The notes under the pieces were generated by a model. It saw only the letters and a list, made by a program, of their open reading frames with translations, had not been told where the DNA came from and searched no databases. 64,000 nucleotides of DNA from Devosia sp. Root413D1 (GTDB taxonomy: Bacteria > Pseudomonadota > Alphaproteobacteria > Rhizobiales > Devosiaceae), in assembly GCF_001425235.1 (NCBI RefSeq), contig NZ_LMEA01000001.1, positions 248,001 through 312,000 on the forward strand, written 5' to 3'. Shown here one piece after another: positions 7,673 through 22,495 of the stretch; the stretch's first letter is position 1, and each line of letters opens with the position of its first letter. The position numbers and the translations under genes were made by a program.

Positions 7673-8458
7673 ATGTCCACGCCCGCCTCCACTCGCGTCA
7701 TCGACCGCCTGAAGACTGAGTTCAGTTTCCAGATCTCGGTCGATACCGACAGCCTGCCGCTCGGGCTCACGGTCGCCGAGGCCGCCCTCGCCGCCGGCGT
7801 CGATCTCGTCGAAATGGGCACCCCGCTGCTGAAGACCGAGGGGGTGAAGCACGTCGTTCCCGCCTTCCGCGCCCGCTTCCCCGATGCGCTGCTGCTCGCC
7901 GACATGAAGACCATGGATGGCGGCAGCTTCGAAGCCCGCTCGGTGTTCGAAGGCGGCGGCAACATCATCGATTTCCTCGCCATTGCCGGCGTGCCGAGCG
8001 CCAAGGGCATCTGCGGCGTGCGCGACGAATACCGCCGCGCCAACCCGGAACTGCCGCGCCTGGTGTTCGCCGATATCCTGCTGCCGCATCAGGGCCCGGC
8101 CGACACCGCCATCGAGGTGGCGCTGCGCATGCTCGACGCCGGCGTCGACGGCATCGGCGCCCACCTGCAGCTCGATGCTCGCCGCGCCGACCCCAGCCTC
8201 TTCCACTCGAGCTACCTCGCCGACGTGGTCGGCGCCGTGCACCACCGCGTCGGCGCACTCGCCTCGGTGCAGGTGGTCGGCGGCCTCTATCTCGAGCAGG
8301 CCGTCGCGCTCGCCAAGACGGGGCTCCGCGCCTTCGTCATCAGCGGCAATCTCGGCCTCCCCGACGCCCAGGCCCGCTACGGCAACCCGCCCGGCGAAAT
8401 CCGCGAGCACATCGCCGCCTTCATTGCCGGGGTGTCGCAGACCAGCACCGCGCCGTGA
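7673..8458 (+). CDS. HUMPS/OMP decarboxylase-superfamily protein (hexulose-phosphate synthase-like)
   Basis: The 261-residue protein has the (beta-alpha)8 signatures of the orotidine-monophosphate decarboxylase superfamily: Glu47 in VEMGTPLLK, then Asp77-x-Lys79-x2-Asp82 in ADMKTMDGG. This DxKxxD set is shared by 3-hexulose-6-phosphate synthase and 3-keto-L-gulonate-6-phosphate decarboxylase, which use Mg2+ and an enediolate intermediate. At 261 residues it is about 50 longer than typical members. No hexulose-phosphate isomerase gene is adjacent, so the physiological substrate is open. Its stop overlaps the GTG start of the next gene (GTGA). Confidence 0.78.
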   Translation: MSTPASTRVIDRLKTEFSFQISVDTDSLPLGLTVAEAALAAGVDLVEMGTPLLKTEGVKHVVPAFRARFPDALLLADMKTMDGGSFEARSVFEGGGNIIDFLAIAGVPSAKGICGVRDEYRRANPELPRLVFADILLPHQGPADTAIEVALRMLDAGVDGIGAHLQLDARRADPSLFHSSYLADVVGAVHHRVGALASVQVVGGLYLEQAVALAKTGLRAFVISGNLGLPDAQARYGNPPGEIREHIAAFIAGVSQTSTAP

Positions 8459-9941: not shown

Positions 9942-10694
9942 CTACATGGTGATGCCGCCATCCACCACGAAGTTCGACCCGGTCGCATAGGCGCTCTCGT
10001 CGCTCGCGAGATAGACCAGGAGGTGCGCCATTTCTTCGGGCTGCGCCATGCGGCCCATCGGCTGGCGGGCGACGAAGGTCTTCCACACCTCGTCGTGGTC
10101 GCCCAGCGCGTGCGCCCGTTCGTGCAATGACGGCGAGTCGACGCTGCCGGGGCAGATGGTGTTGGCCCGGATGCCGTTCTTCATGTAGTCGAACGCCACC
10201 GACTTGGTGAAGCCGATCACCGCCGCCTTCGACGACATGTAGCCGACACGGTTCGGCACGCCCTTCATCGACGAAGCGACCGACGCCACGTTGATGATAT
10301 TGGCGCCGCCCTGCGCAATGAAGGCCGGCAGGAAGGCCTGCGTCAGCACGAACATCGGCGTCACGTTGATATCGAAGCTGAGCTGCCATTCTTCGAGCGT
10401 GGTGGTGCCCAGCATGCCCTGATGCACCCAGCCGGCGCCATTGTAGAGCACGTTCACCCCATGATGCCGCGCCGCCGCCTCGCGCAGCGCCAGATGGTCG
10501 GTGACATCGAGCGCATAGGTCTCGTGCCCGGGCGAGATCGCCCTGAGCTCCTCGCCCTTGCGCGCAATCCCCTGGGCATCGCGGTCGGTGGCGATCACCC
10601 GTGCTCCCTCGCGTGCGAATGCCGTGGCTGCCGCCCCGCCGATCCCCGCCGCTGCCGCGGTCATGAAGATGGTTTTCCCCTCGAGCCGTCCCAT
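9942..10694 (-). CDS. SDR oxidoreductase, DHRS6 / 2-keto-3-deoxy-L-fuconate dehydrogenase-like
   Basis: The 250-residue classical short-chain dehydrogenase starts at ATG 10694 (MGRLEGKTIF). The cofactor motif is TAAAAGIG (12-19), with Asp37 at the end of strand 2 favouring NAD. The catalytic site is Ser138 with Tyr152-x3-Lys156. The N-terminus, the VASS-KGVPNRVGY block and the CPGSVDSPSLHER segment are strikingly close to human DHRS6 (BDH2). In bacteria this subfamily includes 2-keto-3-deoxy-L-fuconate dehydrogenase. That role would fit the nearby dehydratase and divergent kinase operon, but the substrate is inferred. Confidence 0.82.
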   Translation of the reverse strand: MGRLEGKTIFMTAAAAGIGGAAATAFAREGARVIATDRDAQGIARKGEELRAISPGHETYALDVTDHLALREAAARHHGVNVLYNGAGWVHQGMLGTTTLEEWQLSFDINVTPMFVLTQAFLPAFIAQGGANIINVASVASSMKGVPNRVGYMSSKAAVIGFTKSVAFDYMKNGIRANTICPGSVDSPSLHERAHALGDHDEVWKTFVARQPMGRMAQPEEMAHLLVYLASDESAYATGSNFVVDGGITM

Positions 10695-10766
10695 TTTCTC
10701 CCTTTCCGTCCAGTTCGGTGTTTGACCAAAGGCCAACCCTCTGGTCGTTGTCCCATTTCGCCTGTG

Positions 10767-10779
10767 TGGTACCATACCA
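10767..10779. promoter_or_regulatory. candidate operator TGGTACCATACCA
   Basis: TGGTA-CCA-TACCA is a perfect inverted repeat of five bases around a three-base centre, lying in the 108-base gap between the divergent SDR and kinase genes. TGGT-N-ACCA palindromes are typical of FadR-type GntR regulators of sugar-acid and hydroxy-acid catabolism. No GntR gene is in the window; the nearby LacI protein would be expected to use a different site. Confidence 0.5.
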
Positions 10780-10802
10780 GCCTTGCAAGGGGGACCAGCA
10801 CT

Positions 10803-11813
10803 ATGGATGAATTGACCTGGGAAGCGCTGCTTCCCCCGATCTTTGCGACTGCCGGCATCGACGCCGGTGGAGCGCTGGAAATCGCCCCGCTCACTGGCGG
10901 CGTTTCATCCGATATTGTGCGCATCCGCCTGCCCGATGGCCGCCAATACTGCGCCAAGCGCGCCCTCGGTAAGCTCAAGGTCGCCACCGACTGGCAGGCG
11001 CCGCTCGAGCGCAACCAGTATGAGGTGGCCTGGCTGCGCCGCGCCAACGCCATCGTCCCCGGCGCCGCGCCCGAAGTGATCGGCGAGGACCGCGCGCACG
11101 GCATCGCGCTGCTCGAATACCTGCCGGCCGAAGACTATTTGCTGTGGAAGGCCGAGCTGCTGGCCGGCCGCGCCGATCCGTCGGTTGCCACCGCCGTCGC
11201 CGAGGCGCTCGGGCGCATCCACGCCGCGACGCTCAACGATCCCTCGGCCGCCGCCGAGTTCCCCACCGACCACCTGATCGATGCCCTGCGGCTCGACCCC
11301 TATCTGCGCTTCACCGCCGGACGCCACCCGGAGCTTGCCGATCGGATCCTCGCCGTGCTGACGACCACCGCGAACACCAAACTGGCGCTGGTGCACGGCG
11401 ATGTCAGCCCCAAGAACATCCTCATTGCGAAGCGCGACGGCCACCCGGTGCTGCTCGATGCCGAGTGCGCCTGGTACGGCGATCCGGCCTTCGACGCTGC
11501 CTTCTGCCTCAACCACCTGGTGCTGAAGTCCATCCACCTGCCGGCACTGCGCGATGCCCTGCTGGCTCAGGCGTCTGCCTTCGCCGCCACCTGGCTCGGA
11601 CATTTCCCCGCGCAACTGCGTGCCAGCACCGAGGCACGCGCCGCCGCCCTCCTGCCCTGCCTGATGCTGGCGCGGGTCGATGGCAAATCGCCGGTCGAGT
11701 ACCTCAGCGAGGCCAGTCGCCAGCTGGTGCGCGATCGGGCCATTCCACATATCCAACACCCGCCAGTAGCCATCGCCGAGCTGCTCGACAGCCTTAGTTC
11801 ACCTCAGGATTGA
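10803..11813 (+). CDS. APH-family phosphotransferase (small-molecule kinase)
   Basis: The 336-residue product has the aminoglycoside-phosphotransferase/choline-kinase fold. The catalytic loop is HGDVSPKN (198-205; Asp200 and Asn205), and LLDAECA (Asp219) provides the Mg-binding residue of the DxE type. Start ATG 10803 follows AAGGGGGA by a good distance. It sits nine bases upstream of the enolase-like gene and is probably cotranscribed with it. The family phosphorylates many small alcohols; here a sugar acid or polyol is a reasonable guess from context only. It is unlikely to be an antibiotic-resistance gene. Confidence 0.8.
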   Translation: MDELTWEALLPPIFATAGIDAGGALEIAPLTGGVSSDIVRIRLPDGRQYCAKRALGKLKVATDWQAPLERNQYEVAWLRRANAIVPGAAPEVIGEDRAHGIALLEYLPAEDYLLWKAELLAGRADPSVATAVAEALGRIHAATLNDPSAAAEFPTDHLIDALRLDPYLRFTAGRHPELADRILAVLTTTANTKLALVHGDVSPKNILIAKRDGHPVLLDAECAWYGDPAFDAAFCLNHLVLKSIHLPALRDALLAQASAFAATWLGHFPAQLRASTEARAAALLPCLMLARVDGKSPVEYLSEASRQLVRDRAIPHIQHPPVAIAELLDSLSSPQD

Positions 11814-11822
11814 TAACGCGTT

Positions 11823-13109
11823 ATGTCAGCCATCAAGACCATTCTCGGCCGCCAGGTGTGGGACTCGCGCGGCCGCCCCACCGTCGAAGTCGAGGTCACG
11901 CTGGAGAGCGGCGCCAGCGGTCGCGCCATCGCCCCGTCCGGCGCCTCCACCGGCAGCCGCGAGGCGCTCGATAAGCGCGATGGCGGCAAGCGGCTGGGGG
12001 GTTTCGGCGTCAACGCCGCGCTGGCCGCGGTGAACGGCGAAATCCAGAACCGGCTCGTTGGCCTCGATGCCCTCGACCAGGTCGCCGCCGATCGCGCCAT
12101 GATCGAACTCGACGGCACCCCGCAGAAGACCCGGCTGGGCGGCAACGCCATCGTCGCCACGTCCTCCGCCATCGCCTGGGCGGCTGCGACAGAGCAGCGG
12201 ATCCCGCTCTGGCAACATTTGCGGCGCCTCAGCAACCTCGATCCCGAGGCCCAGCACATCCCCGCCCCGATGATCCAGATTTTCGGCGGCGGCCGCCATG
12301 CCGGCAATCGCATCGACATCCAGGATTTTCTCATTCTCGCCGTCGGCGCCCAGAGCTTCGCCGAGGCCACCGAGCAGATCGCCGAAGTCTACATGGCCGC
12401 CAGCAAGGCCATGGTCCAAAAGGGCAAGCTCAACGGCGTCGCCGACGAGGGCGGCGTCTGGCCCGATTTCACCGCCAATGAGGACGGGCTCGAACTGCTC
12501 ACCCGCGCCATCGAGGCGGCCGGGCTTCGCCCCGGCGCCGATATCGGTATCGCGCTCGACGTCGCGGCCACCTCGTTCTACGCCGATGGCGCCTATCGCC
12601 TGGCGCTCGAAGGCAGGGCGCTCTCGACGCTCGAGATGATCGAGCAGCTGCAATCCTGGGTCAGCGCCTACCCGATCGTCTCGCTCGAGGACCCCCTTGC
12701 GGAGGACGATGACGAAGGCTTTGCCGAGATCACTCGGCGGCTCGGCAAGTCCATTCAGATCGTTGGTGACGATTATCTGACCAGCTCAGAGTCCCGTGTT
12801 GCCCTCGCCGCAGCACAGGGATGCTGCAATTCGGTGTTGCTCAAATCGAACCAGTGCGGCACCCTGACCGAACTGATTGCAGCAAGCACGCGCGCCCGCG
12901 CCGTCGGCTGGAATACCATCCAGTCCGGCCGCTCCGGCGAAAGTGAAGATGTGACGCTCAGTCATCTGGCGGTCGGCTTGATGTCAGACCAGATCAAAGT
13001 CGGCTCGATGACGCGCTCAGAACGGACTGCGAAGTGGAATGAAGTGATCCGCATAGAGGGTTACTACGTAGCGCCGCGCTACTGGCGTTTTACCATTCCG
13101 CGGCTGTAG
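11823..13109 (+). CDS. divergent enolase-family protein
   Basis: At 428 residues it spans a full enolase. The APSGAST loop (37-43), Glu209, metal ligands Asp246, Glu289 and Asp316, catalytic Lys341, Arg370-Ser371 and Lys392 are all present at nearly the same numbers as in E. coli enolase. Two changes stand out. The active-site His before Arg370 (E. coli His369) is Gly369, and the GGEHADN loop is GGRHAGN, keeping His159. This is probably not the housekeeping enolase; the altered phosphate end suggests a different substrate or reduced activity. It follows the kinase by nine bases, so it may dehydrate the kinase product. Confidence 0.82.
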   Translation: MSAIKTILGRQVWDSRGRPTVEVEVTLESGASGRAIAPSGASTGSREALDKRDGGKRLGGFGVNAALAAVNGEIQNRLVGLDALDQVAADRAMIELDGTPQKTRLGGNAIVATSSAIAWAAATEQRIPLWQHLRRLSNLDPEAQHIPAPMIQIFGGGRHAGNRIDIQDFLILAVGAQSFAEATEQIAEVYMAASKAMVQKGKLNGVADEGGVWPDFTANEDGLELLTRAIEAAGLRPGADIGIALDVAATSFYADGAYRLALEGRALSTLEMIEQLQSWVSAYPIVSLEDPLAEDDDEGFAEITRRLGKSIQIVGDDYLTSSESRVALAAAQGCCNSVLLKSNQCGTLTELIAASTRARAVGWNTIQSGRSGESEDVTLSHLAVGLMSDQIKVGSMTRSERTAKWNEVIRIEGYYVAPRYWRFTIPRL

Positions 13110-13139
13110 TCGAATGAAGGGCAGTTTGGGGGATTCAGT

Positions 13140-14165
13140 TTGGGGGACGCAGACAGACGCAGTGGCGCGGGCCGGCCGGTTCGCGTTGAAGATGTAGCAC
13201 GCGTCGCCGGTGTCTCGCCGATTACCGTCTCGCGCGCCCTGTCCTACCCCGACAAGGTCAAGGATGAGACCCGGGCCCGCATTCTCGAGGCCGTCGCCCA
13301 GACCGGCTACGTCGTCAACCGCTTCGCCTCCTCGCTGCGTTCCGGCCGCTCCAACGTTATCACCGTCTTCGTCTCGAGCCTGCTCAATCCGCACTTTGCC
13401 ACCTCGGTGCAGGGCATCGTCGATTCGGTCGAGGGCAGCGGTTACCATCTGATGTTCGCCCAGACCGGCTATTCCGAGATGCTGGAGATCGACGTCGTCG
13501 AATCAGTGCTGCCGTTCCGTCCCGCCGGCGTCGTCTTCACCGGCGTGGTTCGCGCTGACAAGACCCGCCAGGCGCTGCAGAAGCTCGGCATCCCGGTGAT
13601 GGAAATGTGGGGCAACCGCCCCGATCCGATCGACATGCTGGTCGGCTCGTCGAGCTACGATGCCGGCCGCCTGATGGGCGAGCATTTCGGCGAACGGGGC
13701 TTCCGCAAAATCGCCTATAGCGGCCACACCATCGAGCGCACCGCGCAGCGCATCGAGGGCTTCCGCCACGGCCTCGCCAAGCACCGCCTGACGCTGGAGC
13801 TGATCCACCCGATGGATGGCACCCGCACCTTCGCCGACGGCATGCATGCCTTCGACGCTATTCTCGAGCAACTGCCCGGCTGCGACGCCATTTTCTTCGG
13901 TACCGACGTGCTCGCCGCCGGCGCCATGACCCGGGCGCTCGACCGCGGCATCGCGGTGCCCGGCCAGGTCGCCATCGCCGGCTATGGCGACCTCGAGTTC
14001 ACCCAGCACGTCCGCCCCTCGCTCACCTCGCTGCAGGTTTCGAGCTACGAGATGGGCCGCGAGGCCGGCCGCATGCTGATCAAGCGGCTCAGTGGCGAAG
14101 CCATCGCCAATCCCATCGTACTGCAGCCGATCAGCCTCGAAGCCCGCTCCAGCACTCTGGGTTGA
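13140..14165 (+). CDS. LacI-family transcriptional regulator
   Basis: The frame from a TTG at 13140 codes 341 residues: a LacI helix-turn-helix (residues about 15-40, VEDVARVAGVSPITVSRALS) and a periplasmic-binding-like effector domain with GAMTRALDRGIAVPGQVAIAG in the usual place. It resembles GntR/gluconate-type LacI regulators. GGGGGA lies seven bases before the TTG; no in-frame ATG is available nearby. It lies between the kinase-enolase pair and the dehydratase gene and so probably controls one or both. The effector is not evident. Confidence 0.87.
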   Translation: MGDADRRSGAGRPVRVEDVARVAGVSPITVSRALSYPDKVKDETRARILEAVAQTGYVVNRFASSLRSGRSNVITVFVSSLLNPHFATSVQGIVDSVEGSGYHLMFAQTGYSEMLEIDVVESVLPFRPAGVVFTGVVRADKTRQALQKLGIPVMEMWGNRPDPIDMLVGSSSYDAGRLMGEHFGERGFRKIAYSGHTIERTAQRIEGFRHGLAKHRLTLELIHPMDGTRTFADGMHAFDAILEQLPGCDAIFFGTDVLAAGAMTRALDRGIAVPGQVAIAGYGDLEFTQHVRPSLTSLQVSSYEMGREAGRMLIKRLSGEAIANPIVLQPISLEARSSTLG

Positions 14166-14223
14166 GGCCCCCGGGCCGCTGGTTGGATATCGTGGCAACG
14201 CCGCTGACAGGCCGGTGCAGGAA

Positions 14224-14334
14224 GATACCCCTCCCCTGTCCCCTCCCCGCAAGGGGGAGGGAGACGCTCTCACCAGCGCCAGCGTTTTGGTCTCCTCCCC
14301 CCTTGCGGGGGAGGGACAGGGTGGGGGGTACTCT
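14224..14334. repeat. nested palindromic element, CTCCCC family
   Basis: Within the 358-base gap 14166-14523, two arms (about 14227-14264 and 14290-14330) form an inverted pair, each arm carrying its own hairpin (CCTCCCCGCAAGGGGGAGGG). The centre, with CCAGCGTTTTGGTCTCC, recurs in inverted orientation at 62305-62418. The rest of the gap holds the dehydratase leader, with no clear operator. Confidence 0.75.
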
Positions 14335-14523
14335 TCCCACACCGGCGGCGGAGGCCACAGTGACTCCGTCGGTGACCTACCCATCCCGCCCATTGCAACC
14401 CGACATCCCGATCTCTATCATCGCCTCCGGTACGATCCTCCCTCAATCGAAGGAATGCCTGCCCAGTCCGTCGGGATTGGGCTATGGATCGTCGGGACAG
14501 CCTGTTGATTTGAGGAGATCACT

Positions 14524-16335
14524 ATGAGTTCGGGTAAAGGCGAGACCGCGCAGGGCAAGAAGCTCCGGTCGCGCGCCTGGTTCGATAATCCGGAAAACCC
14601 GGACATGACTGCGCTCTACCTCGAGCGCTATTTGAACTACGGCATTTCGCGTGAAGAGCTGCAATCCGGTAAGCCGATCATCGGCATCGCTCAGACCGGC
14701 TCCGACATCTCGCCCTGTAACCGCCACCACCTCGAGCTGGCCAAGCGCGTGCGCGACGGCATCCGCGATGCCGGCGGCATCGCCATGGAGTTCCCGGTCC
14801 ACCCGATCCAGGAAACCGGCAAGCGTCCGACTGCCGGCCTCGACCGCAACCTCGCCTATCTCAGCCTTGTCGAAGTGCTGTACGGCTACCCGCTCGATGG
14901 CGTGGTGCTGACCATCGGCTGCGACAAGACCACCCCGGCCATGCTGATGGGCGCCGCCACCGTCAATATCCCGGCGATCGCCCTGTCGGTCGGCCCGATG
15001 CTCAACGGCTGGTTCCGCGGCGAGCGCACCGGTTCGGGCACCATCGTGTGGAAGGCGCGCCAGATGATGGCCGCCGGCGAAATCGGCTACGAGCAGTTCA
15101 TCGAGCTGGTGGCGTCCTCCGCCCCCTCGACCGGTTACTGCAACACCATGGGCACCGCCTCGACCATGAACTCGCTGGCCGAGTCGCTCGGCATGCAACT
15201 GCCCGGTTCGGCCGCCATCCCGGCGCCCTATCGCGATCGGCAGGAAATGGCCTGGCGCACCGGCATGCGCATCGTCGAGATGGTGCATGAGGACCTGAAG
15301 CCCTCCGACATCCTGACCAAGGACAATTTCATCAACACCATCGTCGTGAACTCGGCGATCGGCGGCTCGACCAACGCCCCCATCCACATCAACGCCATCG
15401 CCCGCCACATCGGCGTCGAGCTGAACATCGACGATTGGCAGACGCACGGCCACAAGGTGCCGCTGCTGGTCAACATGCAGCCGGCCGGCGAATACCTGGG
15501 TGAGGATTATTACCATGCCGGCGGCGTGCCGGCGGTGGTCAACGAGCTGATGAAGCAGGGCCTCATCCGCGAGAATGCCCCGACCGTCAACGGCAAGACC
15601 ATCGGCGAGAACTGCCGCACCACCACCATCCAGGACGACAAGGTGATCCGGCCGTTCACCAACCCGATGAAGGCCGAAGCCGGCTTCCTGGTGCTGCGCG
15701 GCAACCTGTTCGACAACGCCATCATGAAGACCTCGGTGATCTCCGAGGAGTTCCGCCTGCGCTACCTGAACAACCCCAACGACCTGGGCGCCTTCGAGGG
15801 CAAGGCCGTGGTGTTCGACGGCCCGGAGGATTACCACCACCGCATCGACGACCCGTCGCTCAATATCGACGAGCACACGCTGCTGTTCATGCGCGGCGCC
15901 GGCCCGATCGGCTATCCGGGTGCGGCGGAAGTGGTGAACATGCGGCCGCCTGATTACCTGATCAAGAAGGGCATCACCTCGCTCGCCTGCATCGGCGATG
16001 GCCGCCAGTCCGGCACATCCGGCTCGCCGTCCATCCTCAATGCCTCGCCGGAAGCGGCGGCGGGCGGCAACCTCGCCATCCTGAAGACCGGCGACCGCGT
16101 CCGCATCGACCTCAACAAGGGCGAGGCCGACATTCTCATCTCCGCCGAGGAGATCGAGCAGCGTCGCGCCGAACTGCATGCCGCCGGCGGCTACAAGTAT
16201 CCGGCGCATCAGACGCCATGGCAGGAAATCCAGCGCGGTATCGTCGACCAGCTCGGCGCCGGCGGCGTGTTGAAGAACGCCGTCAACTACCAGCGCCTGG
16301 CACAGACAGCCGGTCTGCCACGCGACAACCATTGA
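14524..16335 (+). CDS. IlvD/Edd-family sugar-acid dehydratase, D-xylonate dehydratase-like
   Basis: The 603-residue protein is closest in my recollection to Caulobacter D-xylonate dehydratase (XylD), with near-identical stretches such as [20 protein letters not shown] (48-67). The three [2Fe-2S] cysteines are present: Cys65, Cys133 (GCDKTTP) and Cys206 (YCNTMGT), with Lys135 as the expected carbamylated Mg ligand. The reaction removes water from a C5/C6 aldonate to give a 2-keto-3-deoxy acid. Other aldonates (L-arabonate, L-fuconate, gluconate) are possible substrates. No 2-keto-3-deoxyxylonate dehydratase or aldolase is adjacent. TTTGAGGAGATC precedes the ATG. Confidence 0.88.
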
Positions 16336-20945: not shown

Positions 20946-22355
20946 TCACTCCCCCGCATAGGCCTCGCGCATTTCCTCGATCTCGCCCATTGCCTCGTAG
21001 AGCGGGCGCCAGTCGTCGCGCTCGGCAATCGGCGCCCACAGCGCCTCCATCTCGTCGATCAGCATGGTCCGCGGCACATCGCGCTTGAAATACGGGTGGT
21101 CGAGATTGGCATCCGGCGACGCCGGGTGCGCAGTCAACAGGCCGGCCAGCGTCTCGAAAGCCGAACCGCGATAGTGGTCGGCCGCCGGGCTCCGCATCGC
21201 CCGCGCTCCATCGCCACCGCGCCAATCGAAGAAGAACTGCTCGAACGGCATCTGCGTTTCGCGCAGGAAGTTGAACACCTCCTGCACCAGCAGCGCATCC
21301 GCTTCCACCCCGAGCGACGCGAGCCCCAGACGCTCCAGCACCGCCGACCACACCGAACGCTGGAACGCCGGCCAGAACTGGTTCAGCGCCGCTTCCATCT
21401 CGGCATGCTCACCCAGCGGCAGCAGCACTTCGGCGAGCCGCGTCAGGTTCCAGGCCAGCGTGTCCGGTTGCTTGCCGAAGGCATAAAGCCCCCACTCGTC
21501 GAAATAGGCCGCGGTGAAACTCGGATCATAGGTCGGCAGGAACCGCCACGGTCCGTAGTCGAAACTCTCGCCGGTGATGTTGATATTGTCGGTATTGAGC
21601 ACCCCGTGCACGAACCCCGCCGCGATCCACCGCGCCCCGGTTTCGGCGACATGTTCGCTCACCGCGCCAAGGAACTTTGCTGCCCGGCCGTTATCGCCCT
21701 CGACCCACAGCTCGGGGTAATAGGCGCGCACCGAGTGGTCGAGCAGCGCCCGCAGCCGCTCGTCTTCCTTCAAATAGCTCAGCCGCTGGAACGAACCGAT
21801 CCGCGTGTGCCCGTGCGATAGCCGCACCAGCACCGACGAGCGCGTCGGCGACGGCTCGTCGCCGCGCTGCAGCTCCTCGCCGGTTTCGATCAGCGACAGC
21901 GATTTGGAGGTGTTCACCTGAAGCGCCTCGAGCATGGCCGTCGCCAGCACCTCGCGCACTCCACCCTTCAGCGTCAGCCGTCCATCCCCGGCCCGCGACC
22001 ACGGCGTCCGCCCCGATCCCTTGGTGCCCAGGTCCATCAGCCGGCCGTCATTGAGATCCTCGAGTTGCGCATAGAGAAAGCCGCGCCCGTCGCCGAGATC
22101 GGGGTTGTAGGTCTGGAACTGATGCCCGTGATAGCGCAGCGCCAAAGGCTCCGGGAACGACCCCGGCAGCGGCTCGAACTTGCCGAAGTAATTCACCCAG
22201 TCGTCGTCGCTGAGCCCATCGAGCCCCACCGACGCCGCCGCCCGCTGGTTGCGATAGCGCAGGGTATGCTCAGGAAACTGTGCCGCCCGAACCTTGTCGA
22301 AATAGCCCTCGCCAAGCTCGGCATGGGTGGTGCGGGGTTTGAAGGGATGGGTCAT
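20946..22355 (-). CDS. selO: SelO-family protein adenylyltransferase (YdiU)
   Basis: The 469-residue product matches SelO/YdiU pseudokinases, which transfer AMP to Ser, Thr or Tyr residues of proteins and are linked to redox stress. Family blocks seen include LGDGRGFLYAQLEDLN (87-102), KGSGRTPWSRAGDGR (112-126) with nucleotide-binding Lys112, and GVLNTDNINI (251-260) with the catalytic Asp256-Asn257. The fold binds ATP in a flipped orientation. The C-terminus (REAYAGE) is short and lacks the terminal Cys/Sec motif seen in some members. Start ATG 22355 (MTHPF) is preferred over upstream ATGs inside the repeat. Confidence 0.9.
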   Translation of the reverse strand: MTHPFKPRTTHAELGEGYFDKVRAAQFPEHTLRYRNQRAAASVGLDGLSDDDWVNYFGKFEPLPGSFPEPLALRYHGHQFQTYNPDLGDGRGFLYAQLEDLNDGRLMDLGTKGSGRTPWSRAGDGRLTLKGGVREVLATAMLEALQVNTSKSLSLIETGEELQRGDEPSPTRSSVLVRLSHGHTRIGSFQRLSYLKEDERLRALLDHSVRAYYPELWVEGDNGRAAKFLGAVSEHVAETGARWIAAGFVHGVLNTDNINITGESFDYGPWRFLPTYDPSFTAAYFDEWGLYAFGKQPDTLAWNLTRLAEVLLPLGEHAEMEAALNQFWPAFQRSVWSAVLERLGLASLGVEADALLVQEVFNFLRETQMPFEQFFFDWRGGDGARAMRSPAADHYRGSAFETLAGLLTAHPASPDANLDHPYFKRDVPRTMLIDEMEALWAPIAERDDWRPLYEAMGEIEEMREAYAGE

Positions 22356-22365
22356 AGCCAGCCGC

Positions 22366-22495
22366 ATCCCCCTCCCCAACCCTCCCCGCAAGGGGGAGGG
22401 TGCCGCATCCAGTCCGAGGCGCTATCAAGCCACAGCCACCGGCCGGCACCTCCCCCTAGACGGGGGAGGTTGGGAGGGGGGGCGCCCCATGCGCC
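22366..22495. repeat. nested palindromic element, CTCCCC family
   Basis: Two inverted arms, CCTCCCCGCAAGGGGGAGGG (22379-22398) and ACCTCCCCCTAGACGGGGGA.. (from 22448), fill the gap between the SelO and RNA methyltransferase genes. Confidence 0.75.

Follow-up and report, generated by a model that had tools for sequence, protein, structure and literature searches.

Why should an enolase homologue, preceded by a small-molecule kinase, lie among sugar-acid genes in Devosia sp. Root413D1? Textbooks credit enolase with a single job, and the question is raised by a locus at positions 9942-16335 of the window (the whole stretch of 64,000 nucleotides analysed here, on contig NZ_LMEA01000001.1 of a 5.85 Mb genome). 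An earlier note had described a short-chain dehydrogenase/reductase (SDR), a kinase, an enolase homologue, a LacI-family regulator and a dehydratase there, and all five are indeed present. The answer we prefer, with a probability of about 0.4, is that kinase and divergent enolase act one after the other, as a catabolic unit of two steps. Its acid would most likely be glycerate, derived from a hexonate by the oxidative Route III, with L-glycerate favoured, and its product would be phosphoenolpyruvate (PEP). The two genes are as follows.

10803-11813, plus strand: APH-fold small-molecule kinase (PF01636, 73.3 bits against a cut-off of 23.2)
11823-13109, plus strand: divergent enolase homologue (TIGR01060, 453 bits against a cut-off of 300)

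The names that the earlier note gave to this pair agree with the profile matches, and its spacing of nine bases between the kinase stop and the enolase start is correct. The expectation that the two would also be neighbours in relatives was borne out. Among 116 loci (the window included; 80 come from named genomes, being the best 80 of 559), the enolase lies within 250 bp of the kinase in 96 and elsewhere on the stretch in 11 more, i.e., both are on the same stretch in 107. After near-duplicates were merged, the genes are on the same strand in 94/94 adjacent groups, with the kinase first in 88. Nine loci are without a counted enolase: six end at a contig edge (L050, L073, L087, L106, L129 and L135, the last with an incomplete enolase below the counting threshold) and three are interior (L117, L131, L139). 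In L117, on an Acidobacteria-labelled contig, 21 kb of sequence include the kinase but no enolase; its SDR, with an R-R-R-T pattern and Phe, is not counted among the triad SDRs considered below.

Pair-bearing loci come from Alpha-, Beta- and other Pseudomonadota, Rhodococcus, Opitutaceae, Acidobacteria-labelled assemblies and one haloarchaeon. Of 32 plasmid matches, 14 were examined, and plasmid records with both genes belong to Rhizobium, Rhodococcus, Methylobacterium, Paracoccus, Roseibium, Sphingobium and haloarchaea. Some later plasmid records stand outside the 116-locus count (those of Sphingobium and Haladaptatus have the pair; three have no gene table), as does an Enterobacter plasmid APH protein, 35% identical, with no annotated enolase within 9 kb. 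Nine annotated plasmid records list both genes, calling the enolase phosphopyruvate hydratase or enolase and the kinase a phosphotransferase or aminoglycoside phosphotransferase; such current annotations of the pair would mislead metabolic models.

The coupling is also seen across whole genomes. A search of 297 genomes of the order (limit 1e-15) found the kinase in 27, with a weakest match of 3.4e-73; the other 12 genomes sampled from the family of the window's genome gave no match. With the divergent enolase as query, 27 matches reached at least 422 bits, and they fall in 26 of these 297 genomes; among the matches listed, which reach down to about 362 bits, the next is at 389.7, and outside the kinase genomes nothing scores higher than a canonical enolase at 386 bits. 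All 26 genomes with the divergent enolase are kinase genomes, and in the 27th kinase genome (G283) the enolase is cut by the contig end. The Fisher p for this co-occurrence is about 2e-36, a value that ignores relatedness, as do our trees and other p-values. Kinase and enolase are a widely conserved unit and the core of the locus. The earlier note proposed phosphorylation of a hydroxy acid by the kinase and dehydration of the phospho-acid by the enolase-like protein to a phosphoenol product; the linkage and this near-perfect co-occurrence support this, while the activities themselves are predictions from sequence.

Is the enolase an ordinary one? The earlier note called it divergent, and it is only 47% identical to the genome's second enolase, which lies on another contig. 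In a FastTree tree the divergent family (94 sequences) and the canonical enolases fall on opposite sides of one branch with support 1.0. The active site was aligned for the 94 groups whose enolase exceeds 380 residues after trimming; the canonical controls were 23 rows, representing 22 distinct genes, three of them more than 97% alike. Residues are given in yeast enolase numbering, and we take the roles of Lys345 as the base, of Glu211 as the acid and of the metal- and phosphate-binding residues to be those of the yeast enzyme. Glu168 is replaced by Asp in 94/94 divergent enolases and His373 by Ala (86) or Gly (8, the window included), again in 94/94; the canonical rows have Glu and His at these places in 23/23. 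Asn155 is Gly or Ser in 94/94, and the window copy carries E168D, H373G and N155G. By comparison, K345, E211, the metal ligands D246, E295 and D320, and S42, H159, R374, S375 and K396 are kept in all ungapped rows (107 sequences; one X at 396), and the predicted model (predicted local distance difference test, pLDDT, 91.9) superimposes on canonical enolases with a template-modelling (TM) score of 0.94.

The homologue thus shares with enolase (EC 4.2.1.11) the whole fold, the metal ligands, the base, the acid and the phosphate- and carboxylate-binding residues. It differs from it in the three substitutions, in forming a clade of its own and in being found, within the order, only in kinase genomes. 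We consider it a member of the enolase family by sequence and fold and not an assured phosphopyruvate hydratase, because two active-site residues, Glu168 and His373, are changed. In M. tuberculosis enolase, according to PMC10619443, Glu163 and Glu204 are assigned the addition of water at the terminal carbon of PEP, and Glu163 touches the carboxylate. If this Glu163 is equated with Glu168, as we presume, the fixed changes probably lie near the leaving hydroxyl, since that residue acts at the terminal carbon; a literature search on yeast enolase by residue name found no paper. Carboxyphosphonoenolpyruvate synthase of bialaphos biosynthesis is an enolase paralogue with a changed substrate, as the divergent enolase may be; it differs by its biosynthetic, phosphonate context.

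The same substitutions could be read in another way. Asp168 and Ala/Gly373 might make room at C3, so that the pair would act on a larger 2,3-dihydroxy acid of at least four carbons (e.g., a tetronate or an aldonate) and yield a substituted phosphoenol acid; we regard this as possible but doubtful. It would account for fixed changes at residues thought to act near the substrate C3 and for Arg163 on the active-site loop, which is present in 90/94 divergent enolases and is not universal. The varied neighbours, such as a galactarate-dehydratase-like protein, haloarchaeal MR/MLE proteins and a ring-cleavage-type dioxygenase, would suit it as well. However, with a substituted enol phosphate the ATP spent could presumably be regained only with difficulty, the PEP carboxylase in Rhizobium sets fits PEP, and Route III on a hexonate yields glycerate. 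Were the larger acid correct, the pair would represent a phosphorylating dehydration route for sugar acids.

As for the kinase, PF01636 and the HGDxxxxN catalytic motif place it in the APH fold, and H198, D200, N205, D219 and most of ARVDGKSPVEY are invariant in 22 homologues. Its AlphaFold model (pLDDT 94.3) has methylthioribose kinase 2pyw as the best fold match (TM score 0.84 by query length). It shares the fold and the motif with S-methyl-5-thioribose kinase and other APH-fold kinases, but it is only 15% identical to 2pyw, falls far below the S-methyl-5-thioribose kinase cut-off (TIGR01767, 47.6 bits against 275) and has an enolase as partner. Its Pfam matches are APH and, weakly, fructosamine kinase; the same search found no MOFRL domain, the mark of D-glycerate 2-kinases of the MOFRL/GckA type. 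With the D-glycerate kinases of classes I-III (PMC2063504) it would share the reaction, glycerate to 2-phosphoglycerate, but it is unrelated to them.

One may ask whether the pair is simply a second, separately regulated version of known enzymes, i.e., an unrecognised D-glycerate 2-kinase followed by an enolase that turns normal 2-phospho-D-glycerate into PEP. We think this rather unlikely. The third gene most often beside the pair encodes a D-2-hydroxyacid dehydrogenase, within 8 kb in 31 of 111 groups and in the same operon in 23; the PEP carboxylase alongside resembles the serine-cycle segment, and the other enolase catalytic residues are kept, all of which would agree with such an isozyme pair. 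Yet a MOFRL-type glycerate kinase (PF05161) is already present in 256/297 genomes, namely in 22/27 kinase genomes versus 234/270 others (p 0.40), and the window's own genome has a separate one. A further enolase is present in 25/27 kinase genomes, the other two (G032, G078) being fragmented assemblies, and the two active-site changes found in 94/94 sequences would be needless in an isozyme. That the kinase replaces the ordinary glycerate kinase was rejected on the same count of 22/27. By an argument from economy, the pair probably acts on an acid other than that of the ordinary 2-phosphoglycerate route, because a D-glycerate 2-kinase and a further enolase are mostly present already, and a pair for the same acid would gain little and need no two changed residues.

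From where would such an acid come? The other features of the locus bear on this.

9942-10694, minus strand: DHRS6-type SDR, probable 2-keto-3-deoxy-hexonate 4-dehydrogenase (likely start ATG at 10694)
10767-10779, no strand: inverted repeat TGGTA-CCA-TACCA, possible operator between the divergent SDR and kinase genes
13140-14165, plus strand: LacI-family regulator, nearest GntR/IdnR models (TTG start)
14524-16335, plus strand: IlvD/Edd sugar-acid dehydratase, XylD-like (NF009560, 1042 bits against a cut-off of 684)

The SDR gene is transcribed divergently from the kinase gene. The regulator was correctly named as a LacI-family protein; it scores 269.6 bits with NF052440, below the cut-off of 400, and 164.3 bits with IdnR. 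XylD-type dehydratases have D-xylonate and D-gluconate as substrates, and the XylD-like label of the earlier note agrees with the profile score and with the closest solved structures, 7m3k (a galactonate dehydratase by its deposited name) and 5oyn. Cysteines of the dehydratase, among them that of GYCNTMG, align with cysteines of 5oyn and are presumably cluster cysteines.

The route is inferred as follows, including each activity, the sequence of steps and the identity and stereochemistry of the acid. In Devosia and related sets the dehydratase would convert a non-deoxy hexonate into a 2-keto-3-deoxy-hexonate, the DHRS6-type SDR would oxidise this at C4, and a FAH-family hydrolase would cleave the oxidised acid into pyruvate and glycerate. 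The kinase would then phosphorylate the 2-hydroxyl of this short 2,3-dihydroxy acid, and the divergent enolase would remove the 3-hydroxyl to give the phosphoenol acid, most likely PEP. The first part would follow the non-phosphorylative Route III of L-fucose, L-rhamnose and pentoses, in which, according to PMC6336799, a 2-keto-3-deoxy acid is oxidised at C4 and then hydrolysed to pyruvate and a hydroxy acid. The dehydratase and the C4 dehydrogenase are common to both, as is the FAH hydrolase in four related sets, whereas the kinase and the enolase are additions here. L-glycerate, via 2-phospho-L-glycerate, is the favoured form because D-glycerate 2-kinase and ordinary enolase are already encoded in most kinase genomes.

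The best PDB match of the SDR is 2ag5 (DHRS6), as the earlier label implied, followed by 8xwk, 8y11 and 8y4j, which we take to be the structures of L-2-keto-3-deoxyfuconate (L-KDF) 4-dehydrogenase reported in PMC11199699. The link that the earlier note drew to 2-keto-3-deoxy-L-fuconate dehydrogenase is strengthened by the arginine triad. R148, R192 and R214 are kept, as is Ser-Tyr-Lys, with differences from the type 1 enzyme (PMC11199699) at T183, which is Ser, and W252, which is Ile. In that source Trp252 of the type 1 enzyme is the residue nearest the C6 methyl of its substrate, a 6-deoxy acid; the change to Ile would favour non-deoxy acids. The R-T-R-R ligand pattern is R-S-R-R in the window and its clade and R-T-R-R in the other linked SDRs; in the SDR of L055 the third ligand place is Leu in the pairwise alignment and Arg in the multiple one. 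At position 252 the kinase-linked triad SDRs have Ile in 12/12, or in all 13 with L055, and none has Trp, Met, Phe or Leu. The unlinked SDRs of the same order (29, the best-scoring of those with a stored locus; their linkage was judged within at most about 3.7 kb) have Trp in 23, Met in 3, Leu in 1 and Ile in 2, the residue being read just past the alignment end in 13 of the 29.

The H. huttiense enzyme (PMC11199699) also oxidises L-2-keto-3-deoxygalactonate (L-KDGal; kcat/Km 1480 vs 7900 for L-KDF) and takes D-2-keto-3-deoxygluconate weakly (75). Hydrolysis after the oxidation of L-KDGal would release L-glycerate. L-fucose or L-rhamnose as the sugar is disfavoured: lactate, the acid that Route III yields from them, offers no 3-hydroxyl for removal, and a separate SDR copy of the genome carries Trp and lies by FAH and MR/MLE genes (identified by eye), its 18-kb stretch showing neither kinase nor enolase.

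How far do the neighbourhoods support glycerate from a hexonate? Within 8 kb, the 111 groups include a D-2-hydroxyacid dehydrogenase as counted above, the main SDR cluster in 26, an ABC ATPase in 26, FAH in 10, a divergent LacI in 10, IlvD in 6 and, in 6 Rhizobium-type groups, PEP carboxylase (cluster names were assigned by eye and from ten proteins); the last fits PEP as the product. The neighbours are too varied to settle one narrow substrate. The SDR, LacI and IlvD genes accompany the pair in the Devosia clade and elsewhere only in part. In the six clade loci L068-L073 the SDR is 80-98% identical and divergent from the kinase; a LacI relative has the same position in L068 (its open reading frame, ORF, split), L070 and L071 and, weakly (94 bits), in L072, and an IlvD relative 88-99% identical is found in L068 (ORF split), L070, L071 and L072. 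The nearest kinase locus, among the best 80 of 559 named-genome loci, is that of Devosia sp. 66-14 (89% identical). The suggestion that the five genes make one pathway has less support: beyond the Devosia clade the pair is mostly beside other genes. On Paracoccus and Roseibium plasmids the pair is accompanied by a FAH hydrolase, SDRs and a sugar ABC transporter; the Paracoccus hydrolase beside the enolase is LRA6-like (352 bits against a cut-off of 500), nearest to the L-rhamnonate-pathway hydrolase.

Several observations weigh against L-glycerate from a hexonate as the substrate. A C4-dehydrogenase-type SDR is found in only 12-13 of the 111 groups; of the 13 SDR sets 4 have a FAH hydrolase and 6 an IlvD dehydratase, only L055 having both. 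The Devosia clade accounts for seven of the 13 Ile-bearing linked SDRs, and of the two unlinked Ile copies one comes from a kinase genome, G051. The D-2-hydroxyacid dehydrogenase (31/111) never occurs together with this SDR; such enzymes normally make D-acids, and as a partner it would suggest D-acids and D-glycerate. The XylD-type dehydratase would also fit a route from D-gluconate to D-glycerate, and the SDR relative takes D-2-keto-3-deoxygluconate weakly. The window is without a FAH hydrolase, its nearest relatives lying elsewhere in the genome, and no sugar-acid dehydratase is annotated within 40 kb in Paracoccus and Roseibium, where the PLSDB tables are incomplete. Where Rhizobium sets include PEP carboxylase, 4-8 kb separate the enolase from the kinase, and the two are on opposite strands.

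Pairs without obviously catabolic neighbours (L041, L043 and L051, by eye) belong to the same list, and together with L074 and L076, likewise judged by eye, they would be expected if the pair were biosynthetic or regulatory and the sugar-acid genes incidental neighbours. We consider this improbable: the recurrent neighbours are transporters, dehydrogenases, FAH hydrolases and dehydratases, i.e., catabolic ones.

Two further contexts of the pair were observed. The first recurs in L059, L066, L060 and L181 (Rhizobium, Rhodococcus, Sphingobium), with a D-2-hydroxyacid dehydrogenase, a cupin and an alcohol dehydrogenase and, variously, a VOC/ring-cleavage dioxygenase, an acyl-CoA dehydrogenase or PEP carboxylase. 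On the haloarchaeal plasmids L064 and L182 the pair adjoins a cupin, an IlvC-like protein and several MR/MLE-family proteins. Elsewhere in the window's genome, a 53% relative of the Paracoccus hydrolase lies in a pentonate-type cluster; such a set, L191 (G000:C10:154000-173500), has by eye a sugar ABC transporter, a FAH hydrolase, a UxaA-type dehydratase, and SMP-30 lactonase-like and aldehyde dehydrogenase genes.

With glycerate preferred as the acid, what would be new is the coupling of a kinase with an altered enolase inside a known enolase family, with the substrate as proposed. Such an enolase clade, with two fixed active-site changes and its own kinase nearby, extends from bacteria to a haloarchaeon. 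No Route III that includes a kinase and an enolase is known to us. Literature searches aimed at an enolase-kinase gene pair or at such a locus found no paper, subscription journals being mostly outside their coverage. The most specific form of the proposal is that the altered enolase and its kinase convert L-glycerate into PEP via 2-phospho-L-glycerate, as a mirror-image end of glycolysis on plasmids and chromosomes of bacteria and haloarchaea; in this full form we hold it to be unlikely, though attractive. If true, it would give bacteria a route for L-glycerate and explain its use from L-hexonates.

The intergenic palindrome of the earlier note does exist: TGGTACCATACCA (10767-10779) is an inverted repeat of TGGTA and TACCA flanking CCA, with 2 occurrences in the window at up to 2 mismatches against 0.16 expected. 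It is weakly conserved, being intact in the close Devosia relatives L068 and L069 and not found by pattern search in L070-L073, nor seen in their kinase upstream stretches. A perfect 12-bp palindrome, ATAACGCGTTAT (11813-11824), spans the kinase stop and the enolase start and has four sites genome-wide. It was considered as a LacI operator and rejected; it is probably there by chance, because L068 carries ATAACTCGTTAT instead and no complete copy turned up by pattern search in L070-L072. The gap between the LacI and dehydratase genes holds a further inverted repeat (14228-14327) with CCCTCCCC/GGGGAGGG runs and two 38-nt arms that are 84% complementary and separated by 24 nt; the repeat looks like a dispersed palindromic repeat element.

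Two other genes of the window may be mentioned. At 7673-8458, upstream of a dienelactone-hydrolase-like gene and a cupin, lies a gene for an OMPdecase/HUMPS-family protein, weakly similar to 3-hexulose-6-phosphate synthase (72-77 bits, below the cut-offs), with a 70% relative near the pair in L071. On the minus strand at 20946-22391 there is an ORF that resembles selenoprotein O (SelO) by eye.

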